A DNA stretch of 64,000 nt from an uncultured Flavobacteriales bacterium (GTDB taxonomy: Bacteria; Bacteroidota; Bacteroidia; Flavobacteriales_D; Crocinitomicaceae): assembly GCA_913054135.1 (NCBI GenBank), contig CAJXJK010000011.1, positions 62,001 through 126,000 of the forward strand, written 5' to 3'. Each line of letters starts with the position of its first letter. The first letter of the stretch is position 1. The translations under genes were made by a program, and so were the position numbers. This document shows, one piece after another, positions 5,323 through 22,742 of this stretch. A model generated the notes under the pieces. That model did not search any database. It saw only the letters and a list, made by a program, of their open reading frames with translations, and had not been told where the DNA came from.

Positions 5323-6078
5323 ATGATCACCAAGCACGGAATATGTCAAGTATCAATCGCACCAGTGAGAGCTTCTGCTTCGGATGAATCAGAAATTGTC
5401 ACACAACTTCTATTTGGAGATTATGTAGAAGTAATTGAAAGCGGACAACCTTGGATTAAAATCTACTTTCCGGCGGATGATTATGAGGGATGGATGGATT
5501 TTAAACAACTACTGTATATATCTGAAGAAGAATACTTAAGAGATACTAAAAAAACTCATCCCGTATTGACAGTAGGCAGTCTTCAAATTAATGGACCTAT
5601 TGGAGCTCAGCACATTATTTTTGGATCAAATTTGCCCAACCTAAATGAAAGCAAAATAAAGATGGGTGGAATTGATTACGAGATTGATCCGATAAACAAT
5701 TACAGGGCATCAATGGTTGAGACTTCAATGCTTTTTCTCAATACACCCTACTTATGGGGCGGAAAAGGAATTTTCGGTATTGATTGTTCAGGATTGACTC
5801 AAATAGTGGCAAAAATTCATGGTTTCAATCTACCCAGAGACGCCTCAAAACAAGTTCACACAGGACAATCTGTTGATTTCAAAGATGTTCAACTTGGAGA
5901 TTTCATGTATTTCATCAATTCAAAAAACATTGTTCACCACGTTGGCATTGTTACTGGTCCGAATAAAATAATTCACGCATCTGGACATGTTAGAATTGAC
6001 AAATTTGATGAAAAAGGTATTTGGCGAGAAGACCTAAATAAGTACACCCATAACTACCATTCAACCAAAAGATTGTGA
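5323..6078 (+). CDS. NlpC/P60 cell-wall peptidase with SH3-like N-terminus
   Basis: 251-residue C40-family peptidase. Residues 1-70 look like a bacterial SH3 domain (G-D-Y-V-E-V, W-I-K-I, G-W-M-D), a linker follows, and an NlpC/P60 domain covers about 125-240. The catalytic Cys is 155 in G-I-D-C-S-G-L-T; the His is 206 in H-H-V-G-I-V, with His218 as the third polar residue. Known relatives cut D-Glu-diaminopimelate bonds in peptidoglycan stem peptides. No signal peptide is visible, which suggests a cytoplasmic role in recycling murein peptides (as in YkfC), although export by another route cannot be excluded. Its TGA overlaps the GTG of the next gene by four bases, so the two are translationally coupled. 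Confidence 0.87.
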   Translation: MITKHGICQVSIAPVRASASDESEIVTQLLFGDYVEVIESGQPWIKIYFPADDYEGWMDFKQLLYISEEEYLRDTKKTHPVLTVGSLQINGPIGAQHIIFGSNLPNLNESKIKMGGIDYEIDPINNYRASMVETSMLFLNTPYLWGGKGIFGIDCSGLTQIVAKIHGFNLPRDASKQVHTGQSVDFKDVQLGDFMYFINSKNIVHHVGIVTGPNKIIHASGHVRIDKFDEKGIWREDLNKYTHNYHSTKRL

Positions 6079-6488
6079 ATCAGACTCAAATCAGACTCAA
6101 CCGCTATTCTAGAGGATTTCACATCATTACAAATGATATCCTAGATCAATTGGGAGAATTACCTGAAATAGGATTGCTCCATCTATTTATTAAACATACT
6201 TCTGCGGGCATTTGCATCAATGAAAATGCTGATCCTACCGTACTCTCTGACTTAAATCAATGGTTTAATGAAAACGTTAAGGAGAATGAGCCATATTTTC
6301 AACACACTTATGAAGGCCCAGATGACATGCCTGCACACATCAAATCAATCATTACCGGATGCGACATCACTATTCCGATAAGAAACCATCAGTTAGCACT
6401 TGGAACTTGGCAAGGAATTTATTTGGGAGAATTTCGAAATTCAGCTTCAGGGCGAGAACTCATTGCCACGGTCATTTCTGATAATTAA
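6075..6488 (+). CDS. YjbQ family protein (UPF0047)
   Basis: 137-residue single-domain protein of the YjbQ/UPF0047 family. Conserved signatures are H-T-S-A-G-I-C-I-N-E-N (residues 41-51), Y-E-G-P-D-D-M-P-A-H-I-K near 79-90, and L-G-T-W-Q-G-I-Y near 109-116. Several members have weak thiamine-phosphate synthase activity in complementation tests, and the fold binds a metal; the physiological role is not settled. The start is GTG at 6075, overlapping the preceding stop by four bases; no ATG is available there. It shares an operon with the NlpC/P60 peptidase, a pairing without an obvious functional link. Confidence 0.88.
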   Translation: MNQTQIRLNRYSRGFHIITNDILDQLGELPEIGLLHLFIKHTSAGICINENADPTVLSDLNQWFNENVKENEPYFQHTYEGPDDMPAHIKSIITGCDITIPIRNHQLALGTWQGIYLGEFRNSASGRELIATVISDN

Positions 6489-6597
6489 CGAAAAACTATT
6501 GAACTAGTACGTTTAGAAATTGACATTTAGCCATTAATAATTTCAAATTGACGAAAGAAACCCTTAGTTTAGAGGCTTTCTAATTGAAAATAGATTT

Positions 6598-18800: not shown

Positions 18801-19622
18801 ATGAAATGTAAGAATTGCCAGGTCTCCATTGAAGAATCAGCCAATTTTTGCCCAGCTTGTGGAGCCAAGAATGTTCGCTCTCGAATTACACTCAAATCAA
18901 TTGTCTCAGAGTTCGCCGATCGTGTATTAGGGTGGGACAATAAATATTTTGTAACAATCAAAGATATGATTGTGCGTCCTAAACTTATGTTTGACGGTTA
19001 TATTGGAGGCGTTAGAAAAAAGTATGTCAACCCAATTACGTTCTTCGCTTTAGGAATGACCATTTCTATCATCATCTTTAATTTCTTTCATAATGAATAC
19101 CTTGAACTGTCTTCAAGTGCAGGACCGGTATCCGTTACCAACACGCCAACAATGCCTGATGATTACATGATTGACATGGATCTCACTTTAGAAAAACGAC
19201 AAGAATTATTTCATAATGAAAATCAAACCATAGAGTATATGGTTAAGGTGCAAGAAACCATCTTGAAATATTTTCAAATTTACTCGTTCTTGTTGCTTCC
19301 ACTCTACGCCTTTTTCTCATTTCTGGTGTACCGAAAAAAGTATAATTACGGAGAGCATCTCGTGATAAATGCCTATTTGCAAGGCCTAATGTTTATTGTC
19401 ACTCCCCTATTCTTCATAGGCTCCCTTTACATATGGGCAGACCTATATACGATATCCTTTATTTTGGTGTTTTTAATTTATATGTATGTGTTCACGAAAT
19501 TATTCGAACATACATTTTTAAAATCTATCCTCTATCTTTTGAAGTTCATTGGAATAGGACTCGCCTTCATGATAATCCTGGTTTTACTTGGATTTCTTAT
19601 TGGAATGATGATAACATCTTAA
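18801..19622 (+). CDS. DUF3667-type zinc-ribbon membrane protein
   Basis: 273 residues. A zinc ribbon opens the protein: C-K-N-C at 3-6 and C-P-A-C at 17-20. An amphipathic region with the family signature (T-I-K-D-M-I-V-R-P, G-G-V-R-K-K-Y-V-N-P) follows, then a hydrophobic helix near 85-100 and a block of about four helices from 155 to the end. The family is common in Bacteroidota and has no known function. The TAA shares a TTAA with the stop of the opposing deiminase gene. Confidence 0.8.
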   Translation: MKCKNCQVSIEESANFCPACGAKNVRSRITLKSIVSEFADRVLGWDNKYFVTIKDMIVRPKLMFDGYIGGVRKKYVNPITFFALGMTISIIIFNFFHNEYLELSSSAGPVSVTNTPTMPDDYMIDMDLTLEKRQELFHNENQTIEYMVKVQETILKYFQIYSFLLLPLYAFFSFLVYRKKYNYGEHLVINAYLQGLMFIVTPLFFIGSLYIWADLYTISFILVFLIYMYVFTKLFEHTFLKSILYLLKFIGIGLAFMIILVLLGFLIGMMITS

Positions 19623-20989
19623 CGATTTTTCAATCGAACCATAGCTTCACTAAATTCTTTTCGAATCTGTTGTGATGCTTTGTGCTTACCATTTTCTACA
19701 ACAAGCTTTCCCTTTGAGATGGTGTGAGATTGCATACTAGCATCTGAACTATAAAGAATTGTATTCGCTAAGTTTTCTAATGAACAATTTTCAAGAAGTG
19801 GATGCTCTTGTGAAATTACAGCTACATCTAAATATTCACCAACTTTGAAATAGGTATCATTAAAATTATTCATTGCTTTTCGTCCTGCAGATGTCGCCTG
19901 TTGAATCGCATATAACGCACTGTTACCTTCAGTTACCGAATAATATATATTTCTTTTATGTGAAATCAATCTTTGACCGTAATCTAAAATCCTAAGCTCC
20001 TCAAGAGGGTTTAATCCTACATGTGAATCTGTACCAATACTCCATGCACCATTTTGATCTTGGTATTTTTTTAGTGGAAACAAACCGTCTCCTAAATTCC
20101 CCTCAGTTGATGGACATAACACCACATTAGCTCCTGAATTTGCAAGCCTTTCGGTTTCAGAATCAGTTAAATGTGTAGCATGAACTAGGTGAAACCTATC
20201 ATTCATTTCTATATTATCTAACATCCATTCTACAGGTCTTTTACCGAGATAAGCCATTGAATCTTCAATCTCTTTTAATTGCTCAGAAACATGAATATGA
20301 AAAGGGACATCTGGCAAATGATTCTTAGCCAATTCAGCAATCACTTTTGGTTCAACACCTCTCATAGAATGAATACCAACTGCTATGTTAGCATGCTCAT
20401 AAGAGTCACAGCTGTTTTTTGAAGCTTCAAATAATTTTAAATATTCATCTAAATCAGGAGAAACGAAACGTTTTTGGCCATCTGTCGGCTCCTTACCAAA
20501 GCCGCCCTTTTGATAGAAAATAGGGATTAATGTTATTCCAATACCCACCGACTTTGCTGCAGAAATCAAACGCATTCCCATCTCACTTAAATTCGGATAT
20601 TGATCTCCGTTCTTATCGTGATGAACGTAATGAAACTCAGCTACATCAGTATACCCATGTCTCAGCATCTCAGAGTATAACATCTTAGCAATCGCTTCAA
20701 GATCATCAGGAGAAATACTCAGGGCCAGAGAATACATTGCATCTCTCCAAGACCAAAAATCATCAGGTGTTTCTGAAGTGGAATGTTTTTCAGCTAATCC
20801 GGCCATAGCGTATTGAAACGCATGTGAGTGTGCATTTTGACATCCAGGCAAACCGAAATCTAATTCGATTCCTTCTAGACTAGAATTTTCATCAATATCA
20901 GTAATGAGTCCATCAGTATTCGTTCGAATTCTGACATTCTCTTTCCATCCTGAATTAGTTAAAAGTGCTTTGAAATGATAAGTCTCCAT
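19619..20989 (-). CDS. hutF: Formimidoylglutamate deiminase-like amidohydrolase
   Basis: 456-residue metal-dependent hydrolase of the amidohydrolase superfamily. The metal-binding H-x-H is in Q-N-A-H-S-H-A-F-Q; later ligands appear in F-H-I-H-V-S-E-Q, L-V-H-A-T-H-L and I-G-T-D-S-H-V-G-L-N. The stretch D-D-F-W-S-W-R-D-A-M-Y is typical of HutF, which converts N-formimino-L-glutamate to N-formyl-L-glutamate and ammonia in histidine breakdown. No other hut gene lies in the window, so the pathway is either scattered or this enzyme acts on a related substrate. Confidence 0.87.
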   Translation of the reverse strand: METYHFKALLTNSGWKENVRIRTNTDGLITDIDENSSLEGIELDFGLPGCQNAHSHAFQYAMAGLAEKHSTSETPDDFWSWRDAMYSLALSISPDDLEAIAKMLYSEMLRHGYTDVAEFHYVHHDKNGDQYPNLSEMGMRLISAAKSVGIGITLIPIFYQKGGFGKEPTDGQKRFVSPDLDEYLKLFEASKNSCDSYEHANIAVGIHSMRGVEPKVIAELAKNHLPDVPFHIHVSEQLKEIEDSMAYLGKRPVEWMLDNIEMNDRFHLVHATHLTDSETERLANSGANVVLCPSTEGNLGDGLFPLKKYQDQNGAWSIGTDSHVGLNPLEELRILDYGQRLISHKRNIYYSVTEGNSALYAIQQATSAGRKAMNNFNDTYFKVGEYLDVAVISQEHPLLENCSLENLANTILYSSDASMQSHTISKGKLVVENGKHKASQQIRKEFSEAMVRLKNR

Positions 20990-21020: not shown

Positions 21021-21554
21021 CTATTCGATAATCTGCTTATAAACTGCCGAAGTAAATACCGGCACCATCAAAGTAATAGATCTCATACTTGGCGACATTG
21101 ACATCCAATCTCCACCAGAGAAGCTCCATTCTTCAAAATCATCCGTGACAACTGTAGATAATCCAGAAATTAAATCACCTGAATAAGCCCATGTGTTCCA
21201 GTTTGATGTGAACATGGTAATTGTTTTTCCTTCTCCAACAATAGTCCAAGAACCATAATTCCCAGCTGTAGTTTGAGTCACTGCGATATTTAAGTTGTCA
21301 ACTTTGAAGGAAGTAAAATCATTTGCAGACATTGTAGAGATTTGACCATCTTGTCCTAACATTGAAAAGTTCCAATGATTCCAATCATCAGCAGTGATGG
21401 TAGAAAATGAGTTTGGCCCAATGTTCCAACTATTCATATTTCCAGAACCATTTGTCTTGACTTTGGCTGCCATGAATAATTCGTGACCTGTTTGAGCGGT
21501 TGATGAAATACCAACTAAACAACACATTAACAATGCGAAAAATGAAATCTTCAT
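21021..21554 (-). CDS. Secreted protein of six aromatic ~20-residue repeats, unknown function
   Basis: 177 residues with a clear signal peptide (cut near S-T-A-Q, about 21). I do not recognise the family. The mature protein is built from six tandem units of about 19-22 residues, from about residue 38 to 160. Each opens with D or N, then an aromatic, two variable residues, W or F, and a hydrophobic strand (for example D-W-N-H-W-N-F, N-Y-G-S-W-T-I, N-W-N-T-W-A-Y, D-F-E-E-W-S-F), and most close with a Thr/Ser-rich strand such as I-S-T-M-S-A. This suggests a small beta-solenoid or propeller-like fold with stacked aromatics. It stands alone, 31 bases from hutF on the same strand. Confidence 0.72.
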   Translation of the reverse strand: MKISFFALLMCCLVGISSTAQTGHELFMAAKVKTNGSGNMNSWNIGPNSFSTITADDWNHWNFSMLGQDGQISTMSANDFTSFKVDNLNIAVTQTTAGNYGSWTIVGEGKTITMFTSNWNTWAYSGDLISGLSTVVTDDFEEWSFSGGDWMSMSPSMRSITLMVPVFTSAVYKQIIE

Positions 21555-21647: not shown

Positions 21648-22742
21648 ATGAAGATTAGCGAAATCACGAACTATCTTGAGACCCTTGCCCCATTATCAAG
21701 TCAAGAAGGATATGATAATTCAGGTCTTATCGTAGGAGATAAGAATACTCAAATTACCAAGGCTTTAATCAGTCTCGATTGCACAGAAATAATTGTTGAA
21801 GAAGCAATAGCTAAAGGCTGCAATCTTATCATTTCTCATCATCCCATTGTTTTCAAAGGCTTGAAATCATTCACCGGCAAAGATTATGTTGAGCGTACAG
21901 TAATTAAAGCGATAAAGAATGATATCGCAATTTATGCTATTCATACCAACCTTGATAATTTCAAAAACGGCGTTAACAAGAAGATTGGAGACCTTCTTGG
22001 CATAAAAAACACAGAGATTTTATCGCCATCCTCTGACACCTTAATCAAGCTAATAAGTTATGTTCCTGCTTTAAATACAGAACAAGTTAAAACAGCAATT
22101 TTCGAAGCAGGCGCAGGAGAAATTGGGAATTATTCTGAATGTTCATTCAGTTCAGATGGAACCGGAACCTTCAAGGGAAATGAGAATTCTAATCCTCAAG
22201 TTGGCAGTAAAGGCATTCGTGAATCTGTGAATGAAAAAAGAATTGAAGTTCTTGTATCTTCTCACAAAATGCATTCAGTTGTTAGTGCTTTGAAAAATGC
22301 GCACCCTTATGAAGAAGTTGCCTATGATTTGTTGCCGATTCTAAATATGAATCCATCCGAAGGAGCGGGCATGATTGGCGAACTTGAAGTTGGAATGGAT
22401 GCCAGTCAGTTTTTAACGCAGTTAAAGGAGAAATTTAATTGCGGAATCATTAGACATACTGAACTGATTAATAGACCGATAAAAAGAGTTGCTTGGTGTG
22501 GAGGTTCTGGAAGTTTTTTATTGAAAAAGGCAAAGTCCCAAAAGGCCGACATTTTTATTACGGGAGACTTCAAGTATCATGAATTTTTTGATGCTGAGAA
22601 TCAAATTGTTATAGCAGATATTGGACATTTTGAAAGTGAACAGTTCACAATTGAATTAATTGCCGACTTAATCTCACAAAAATTCCCTACATTTGCACCC
22701 TGCTTAACAGAAAATAATACCAATCCGGTAAAATACTTTTAA
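21648..22742 (+). CDS. Nif3-like dinuclear metal centre protein
   Basis: 364 residues, the long form of the Nif3/YbgI (DUF34) family. Metal-binding residues appear in I-S-H-H-P-I-V-F-K-G (early HH), H-T-N-L-D-N-F in the first half, and the C-terminal D-I-G-H-F-E-S-E. The middle (about 125-235) is the PII-like insertion domain of long Nif3 proteins, with H-P-Y-E-E-V-A-Y-D. The family forms hexameric rings; a GTP cyclohydrolase-like or metal-chaperone role has been proposed but not proven. It lies four bases upstream of the zinc-ribbon coiled-coil gene, a pairing conserved widely in bacteria. Confidence 0.92.
   Translation: MKISEITNYLETLAPLSSQEGYDNSGLIVGDKNTQITKALISLDCTEIIVEEAIAKGCNLIISHHPIVFKGLKSFTGKDYVERTVIKAIKNDIAIYAIHTNLDNFKNGVNKKIGDLLGIKNTEILSPSSDTLIKLISYVPALNTEQVKTAIFEAGAGEIGNYSECSFSSDGTGTFKGNENSNPQVGSKGIRESVNEKRIEVLVSSHKMHSVVSALKNAHPYEEVAYDLLPILNMNPSEGAGMIGELEVGMDASQFLTQLKEKFNCGIIRHTELINRPIKRVAWCGGSGSFLLKKAKSQKADIFITGDFKYHEFFDAENQIVIADIGHFESEQFTIELIADLISQKFPTFAPCLTENNTNPVKYF

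Follow-up and report, generated by a model that had tools for sequence, protein, structure and literature searches.

Introduction

At positions 21,021–21,554 of the window (the whole stretch of DNA analysed here, 64,000 nt long) lies a gene for a small protein with recurring aromatic residues. The locus raises three questions: whether these repeats belong to a family, how they fold, and what such a protein might do at the cell envelope.

An exported protein of six aromatic units

The gene and the parts of its product are as follows. The hairpin units were placed from the AlphaFold2 model together with the alignment.

21021..21554, minus strand: gene for the putative barrel protein, 177 aa, with ATG at 21554 and stop at 21021 (stop codon included), from the ORF list
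21492..21554, minus strand: Sec-type signal peptide, residues 1–21, MKISFFALLMCCLVGISSTAQ, read by eye
21420..21464, minus strand: predicted hairpin unit 1, strands 31–34 and 42–45, W43
21360..21413, minus strand: predicted hairpin unit 2, strands 48–52 and 60–65, W61
21300..21353, minus strand: predicted hairpin unit 3, strands 68–76 and 79–85, F83 (W in the 36 aligned relatives)
21234..21284, minus strand: predicted hairpin unit 4, strands 91–96 and 99–107, W103
21177..21227, minus strand: predicted hairpin unit 5, strands 110–116 and 121–126, W122
21117..21167, minus strand: predicted hairpin unit 6, strands 130–134 and 142–146, W143
21027..21092, minus strand: C-terminal hydrophobic helix, residues 155–176, predicted by AlphaFold2; the segment is conserved in the family alignments

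The pattern [DN]-[WFYM]-x-x-[WF] occurs at residues 39, 57, 79, 99, 118 and 139. Five copies fit the stricter form [DN][WFY]xx[WF], and in unit 1 Met replaces the first aromatic. Neither five strict nor six relaxed matches were reached in any of 20,000 shuffles of the mature window sequence, so the six aromatic units noted in a preliminary description of this DNA are real. The unit spacing given there, 19–22 residues, was nearly correct: the second aromatics are 18, 22, 20, 19 and 21 residues apart. The same description had nearly the whole mature protein made of repeats; this applies to the six units but not to the C-terminal part, a non-repeat hydrophobic segment that is conserved across the family alignments and predicted to be helical. 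Secretion, which it also proposed, agrees with the Sec-type signal peptide and with the Sec or lipoprotein signals found at the same place in relatives. By eye, about 21 of the 37 named relatives appear to be lipoproteins, and most of the others appear to be Sec-secreted (L038 is without its start). A lipobox pattern picked out 19 of 37, with some signals misread. Export to the envelope is thus hardly in doubt.

A sequence family mainly in Bacteroidota

Pfam gave no confident match to a named sequence family: no model scored above its cut-off for the window protein or four typical relatives. NCBIfam likewise had no match for these five proteins, apart from two hits in one relative that were far below their cut-offs and were discarded. 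Other candidates were rejected as well: DUF2911 (E 0.005, 17.1 bits against a cut-off of 27), FAD_binding_9, Clostridium_P47 and others below their cut-offs, PDB sequence hits at E 0.4–1.3, and three PHROG hits at E 0.0007–0.005, the last two sets as weak. Searches of the open-access literature with the motif strings found no paper.

Relatives were nevertheless found. A six-frame search of the protein's own genome (4.05 Mb, 24 contigs) revealed two paralogues with units much more regular than those of the window copy, RTYTSEDWDYWE in L002 and TSFSEDWDNWD in L003. Across 59 genomes, the own genome included, there were 23 matches, of which 13 were real members; the other ten (L013–L020, L022 and L023, E 0.001–0.1) were unrelated proteins on reading and were dropped. 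The real members are 24–32% identical to the window copy, and the 58 other genomes contained no close orthologue of it. A scan of named genomes then gave 37 loci of the family, mainly in Bacteroidota: Crocinitomicaceae (including Crocinitomix, Fluviicola and Taishania), Saprospiraceae (including Aureispira), Bacteroidales, hosts named only to Bacteroidota groups, and two loci in a Polyangia-labelled bin of 63% G+C. These last two, L030 and L038, encode two different members on 63% G+C contigs of one Myxococcota-labelled bin, the sole such label among the 37 loci.

In profile searches, 48 of 240 genomes from the window's taxonomic family had matches, as did 4 of 395 genomes drawn evenly across the phylum (own genome included), a count made with an earlier 13-row profile. 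No relative was found in plasmids and phages by tblastn with the Taishania protein, or in viral contigs by a pattern scan. On sequence grounds, the window protein is almost certainly built of six units and an odd, divergent member of a clear family. The statement in the preliminary description that no described family fits was therefore half right: no Pfam or NCBIfam sequence family was matched, but the fold predicted below, sixfold beta-flower or Tubby-like, already has a name. The libraries searched contain no model for this sequence family, which is clear enough to be named; the fold itself is recently described, not new.

Predicted fold

Before modelling, six hairpins followed by a hydrophobic C-terminal segment had suggested a Tubby-like barrel. 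AlphaFold2, run with an alignment of 37 sequences, modelled both the window protein (helix 155–176; pLDDT 79.8, pTM 0.73) and the Taishania pollutisoli relative (helix 154–173; pLDDT 88.6, pTM 0.83) as twelve strands followed by a helix. Both models consist of hairpins in which a longer loop alternates with a short turn.

Neither model had a PDB match at E ≤ 0.001 with Foldseek alone. With VIA-align 2, the window model matched Tubby first (1c8z, Z 8.6, rmsd 3.8, 144 residues aligned; 2fim, 8.5), next the designed protein 9lx4 (7.4), and then other proteins at Z 4.9 and below. For the Taishania model, the LURP-one protein At5g01750 came first (1zxu, Z 9.3, rmsd 3.4, 130 residues aligned), followed by five Tubby structures at 8.6–9.2, 9lx4 at 7.8, and then a drop to 5.0. 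LURP-one was absent among the matches listed for the window model and topped the list of the relative, to which we give no weight either way. Z values of 8–9 are close to 7–8, which VIA-align states as the typical best Z for models without a clear match, and the register of an AlphaFold2 model can be misled by repeats. We accept the Tubby-like fold because of the gap in Z to the next rows, because of the coverage, and because it had been predicted in advance. The alignments to Tubby and LURP-one extend to model residues 166–176. A barrel with a central helix is, on these models, highly likely.

The preliminary description had offered a small solenoid or a six-bladed ring. An open right-handed beta-solenoid with a Trp ladder and one unit per coil, resembling choline-binding repeats or ice-binding proteins, would indeed suit units that are some 21 residues long and in which Thr and Trp line up. 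Both models, however, show twelve strands in hairpins, followed by a C-terminal helix; none of the 36 aligned relatives departs from six units, a constancy that an open solenoid would not call for; and neither choline-binding or cell-wall-binding repeats nor MORN repeats gave a Pfam match at E ≤ 10 for the window protein and four relatives. We regard the solenoid as very improbable and retain the closed sixfold ring, which by prediction is a twelve-stranded barrel on the sixfold beta-flower plan.

Conserved loops and charge

Alignment A3 contained 36 relatives, one near-duplicate of the 37 having been omitted. A typical unit reads KIRTYTSEDWDYWEISG. In the 216 units of these relatives, Trp occupies the reference position in 216; Thr is found at −9 in 98%, Asp at −4 in 96%, Asp or Glu at −2 in 96%, and Trp at −3 in 76%. 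Mapped on the Taishania model, the Thr marks the end of strand A, YTSEDWD forms the loop, and strand B begins just before the invariant Trp. The conserved loop thus comprises seven residues, Y/x-T/F-S-E-D-W-D.

The loops are strongly acidic. Positions −6 to −1 contain 9–19 acidic residues per protein, and 12–19 in 35 of the 36 relatives. Of the 27 relatives that do not belong to the Fluviicola group, 26 have no basic loop residue and L039 has one; each of the nine relatives in the Fluviicola group carries 1–5. In the window protein the loops have 7 acidic and no basic residues, and the positions held by Asp in relatives are mostly Asn, Thr or Gly. The domain of the window protein carries a net charge of −7, and the median for the 36 relatives is −15.5; for domains cut crudely at fixed lengths, the medians are +1.5 in 12 Bflower_2 proteins and −6 in 19 Bflower_3 proteins, so that the latter are acidic too. 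An acidic-face model accordingly fits the family but not the window copy, since only 7 acidic loop residues are left there.

Proposed role of the barrel

Our best explanation, which we consider probable as a whole, is a secreted or lipid-anchored Tubby-like barrel of six hairpins that serves as a binding scaffold in the envelope, with the window copy as a divergent paralogue. Six beta-hairpins (twelve strands) would close into a small barrel, whose bore would be filled by the hydrophobic C-terminal segment as a helix. By analogy with the aromatic network published for this fold, the invariant Trp found where each second strand starts would most likely pack on this central helix. In an up-and-down barrel the conserved loops would share one face and present six similar tips that bear Trp and acidic residues, and this sixfold face could hold a repeated partner that is cationic or bridged by Ca2+, such as a glycan, a lipid head group or a transporter loop. 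In our own reading, the conserved residues include no catalytic-looking site; a non-enzymatic, multivalent binding scaffold is therefore the most likely role, and we moderately favor a scaffold over an enzyme. That the face of Trp and acidic loops is the binding face is more tentative, with slightly less than even weight. The Fluviicola group fits this scheme less well, because its loops also contain 1–5 basic residues and units within a protein resemble each other far less.

A more specific possibility is that the acidic, Trp-rich loops form the face of a Ca2+-dependent lectin, or one for head groups, and that the protein is an envelope lectin. The D-W-D-x-W tips occur six times over, and 26 of the 27 non-Fluviicola relatives combine 13–19 acidic loop residues with no basic one. 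No lectin family, however, scored above its cut-off, and none was among the structural matches listed; the window copy has N, T or G in place of most loop acids; and we know of no Ca2+ loop of the form D-W-D-x-W. We therefore consider a lectin unlikely, though not negligible, and keep the more general binding scaffold.

Evolution of the units

When subgroups are compared, units that share a position resemble each other hardly more than units that do not, and likeness differs by −0.01 to 0.06 across 15 subgroup pairs; for the Y and F groups the values are 0.492 at the same position and 0.483 at other positions. Within the Y group, likeness is 0.785 among the units of one protein and 0.795 among same-position units across members. 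The near equality of these values indicates that one variant fills all six units. This pattern is weaker in the F group (0.591 within a protein against 0.652 at the same position across members) and absent from the Fluviicola group (0.432 against 0.638), in which each position has its own character. Proteins of one variant also occur in single genomes, with TSYAENWDDW in L021, TTYSNSYDNW in L157 and L158, and TVFSGDDAWKDW in L166. Two further proteins mix two variants (L034:3168-3809 and L037:4605-5255), that of L034 having four TNFS-type units and then two of TYTSEDWDYW, and L164 and L165 encode strongly divergent six-unit proteins.

Equal residues in different units share their codons at a frequency of 0.51 against 0.46 expected (mean of 37 genes). 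Because this is barely above expectation, the likeness of the units appears to be held mostly by selection at the protein level and not by recent copying. Recent duplication or conversion of units was thus rejected as the main cause, with some past exchange possible in certain genes; codon sharing is clearly above expectation in L048 (0.64 against 0.44), L038 (0.57 against 0.43) and L030 (0.53 against 0.39).

A tree of 44 rows placed the window protein beside the RTYTSEDWDYW group with support of 90/87, below the tool's mark for a sure fork. Its branch has 2.5 changes per column (median 0.21) and its composition is odd, and for both reasons its place is unsure. The long branch, the 7 acidic loop residues against 9–19 in relatives, and the lack of a close orthologue in the 58 other genomes are all compatible with a decaying or relaxed paralogue that has no function of its own. 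On the other hand, the ORF is intact and has a signal peptide, an aromatic residue stands at all six reference positions, the C-terminal helix is kept, and the barrel model is fair. Loss of function is thus a minority reading, to which we give about the same low weight as to the lectin. The window copy has kept the predicted barrel and lost most of the acidic ring, and it probably either binds something else or is under relaxed constraint.

Gene neighborhoods

On the same strand, the barrel gene of the window is followed by:

19619..20989, minus strand: HutF-like amidohydrolase, the next gene, 31 bases downstream of the barrel gene

Co-transcription of the two genes is possible. A gene on the opposite strand starts at 21,648, 93 bases upstream of the barrel gene. 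We do not claim that the window and Taishania genes are positional orthologues, because their loci have just one other gene in common, an HU-like one at a distance of a few kb. Comparison of the loci revealed no neighbor common to the whole family.

One clade differs in this respect. At all ten named Fluviicola-like loci, an ABC-2 permease gene lies directly upstream on the same strand, with a gap of −1 to 40 bases, and in nine of them it is preceded by an ATPase gene; L056 ends too soon to show it. The Pfam identity of these exporter genes was taken from L058 and L060, and the pair is presumably of the NatAB type. In genus g18, from whose 27 genomes with a match 23 loci were fetched, both genes were upstream in 22; these loci and the named Fluviicola-like ones overlap, some being from the same genomes. 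Neither exporter gene was seen at L152; at L151 the third gene was missed by the pattern scan and is known there from the profile search. Elsewhere, L025 has the ABC-2 permease and ATPase genes adjoining the family gene on the opposite strand, and in L033, L036 and L039 an ABC ATPase gene is two genes away on the opposite strand, behind a gene for a membrane protein that had no match in Pfam (checked in L033).

The family protein could thus be an accessory periplasmic subunit of a NatAB-type ABC-2 exporter, of which the other members would be free-standing versions. The genes upstream at the named Fluviicola-like and g18 loci argue for this, as does the pair at L025, though on the other strand. 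Conserved gene order is, however, confined to one clade, in which L152 shows neither gene, and apart from L025 no adjoining pair occurs at the window locus or in other subgroups. We find an exporter subunit unlikely, and the envelope binding scaffold remains our preferred reading.

Two other neighbors recur in a few loci. A cysteine dioxygenase-like gene is upstream of, and on the same strand as, lipoprotein-type members, with gaps of 1 base in L003, 3 bases in L032 and 290 bases in L028:

L003:516-1998: cysteine dioxygenase-like neighbor, assigned by eye
L028:4760-6621: cysteine dioxygenase-like neighbor, CDO_I just below cut-off
L032, around 2155: cysteine dioxygenase-like neighbor, assigned by eye

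A small secreted Trp-rich repeat protein with DNSIWWFAPGSEWKKSS units is encoded near the family gene in three Crocinitomix loci:

L033:1987-2460: Trp-rich DNSIWWFAPGSEWKKSS repeat protein
L035:5317-5790: Trp-rich DNSIWWFAPGSEWKKSS repeat protein
L036:4865-5338: Trp-rich DNSIWWFAPGSEWKKSS repeat protein

Comparison with known systems

The best structural matches were Tubby (1c8z, 2fim, 1s31, 3c5n and 1i7e) and At5g01750 (1zxu), with Z values of 8.5–9.3. Identity in these alignments is 5–11%, and Tubby and LURP-one proteins are eukaryotic. Tubby binds phosphoinositides through basic residues, whereas the present family is acidic and exported. Phosphoinositide binding by a Tubby-like basic site is unlikely here, given the domain net charge of −7 in the window protein and the median of −15.5 in relatives. 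The de novo designed protein ZZ4 (9lx4) also resembles the models (Z 7.4 for the window protein and 7.8 for the relative), but it is artificial.

Bacterial proteins of this plan have been described as beta-flowers. According to Durairaj et al. (2023; PMC10584680), these barrels are shallow and have 8, 10 or 12 strands, the petals being four-, five- or sixfold. Those of sixfold form are similar to Tubby, whose twelve-stranded barrel surrounds a hydrophobic helix and which binds phosphoinositides, and they are filed as PF21784–PF21786 in clan CL0395. The paper also describes a C-terminal hydrophobic helix in many sixfold members, some lipoproteins, a first strand permuted relative to Tubby, a semiconserved hairpin-tip motif [DNEQ]xxG, and an example with basic loops and Phe at the tips (PMC10584680).

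In sequence, the present family could not be joined to these models. PF21784, PF21785 and PF21786 gave no match over the curated cut-off for the window protein or four typical relatives; searches with them in 99 genomes gave none at the sites of any of 13 members; and none of the three was among the matches listed (25 families) when Pfam was run over the 37 members. Profile comparison, which covered Bflower_2 and Bflower_3 proteins from related genomes (the 12 strongest of 20 loci and 19 of 20, L129 omitted, respectively), aligned signal peptides and little beyond, not the units: hhalign probabilities were 26.5 for Bflower_2 and 3.8 for Bflower_3. Bflower_2 against Bflower_3 gave 29.1, likewise from signal peptides, and six reversed-side controls gave 0.1–0.7. 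In the present family, the [DNEQ]xxG motif occurs in 78 of the 180 turns between units and in 2 of the 216 loops; 6 of the 12 Bflower_2 proteins have at most one copy of it and 14 of the 19 Bflower_3 proteins have none, and hence it does not discriminate.

Pfam beta-flowers also occur in the genomes studied. The sole PF21786 match in the own genome (G000:C2:8260-8613, L115) is another gene, for a Bflower_3 protein, which brings the flower-like proteins of this genome to four or more, from two sequence families. At L027 (the contig G006:C164 of the Bflower_3 search), a divergently oriented Bflower_3 (PF21786) gene at 5365–5832, minus strand, is 177 bases from a family member at 6010–6588. Many Pfam beta-flowers of related genomes (L086–L097 and L112–L131) have six units alike within a protein, for example NSTSYSKCLYTIDNNK in L127, and whole-protein switching of motifs in this fold may be wider than the present family.

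A bolder synthesis, which we think improbable, would make the family a charge-inverted class of beta-flowers. In several lineages, all six petals would be under selection together, whole proteins would switch among tip motifs such as TYTSEDWDYW, TWTSEDWDFW, TSYAENWDDW, TTYSNSYDNW and TVFSGDDAWKDW, and the barrels would be sixfold receptors for a symmetric or polymeric envelope ligand, the receptor of one clade, whose units have grown unlike one another, having become the periplasmic third component of a NatAB-type ABC exporter.

We found no functional study of bacterial beta-flowers in the open-access literature searched, and an acidic, Trp-tipped face together with an exporter operon in one clade offers a concrete handle on their function. 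Members whose units are alike despite diverged codons are useful for the study of repeat evolution and for barrel design. The interest is for specialists and lies in the acidic Trp face, the change of motif in all units at once in several lineages, and the exporter operon of one clade.

Like the published sixfold beta-flowers, many of which end in a C-terminal hydrophobic helix (PMC10584680), the members of the present family are small, bacterial, exported proteins with six similar hairpins and a C-terminal helix, both by prediction, and some are lipoproteins; the Bflower_2 and Bflower_3 proteins of related genomes likewise have six similar units and a hydrophobic end. The present domain has a median of 157.5 residues with the helix, and the PF21784, PF21785 and PF21786 models have 116, 112 and 125 positions. 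The family differs from the sixfold beta-flowers in its acidic DWDxW loops, where the published example has basic loops with Phe tips (PMC10584680), and in the Trp that is invariant in every unit of its 36 aligned relatives.
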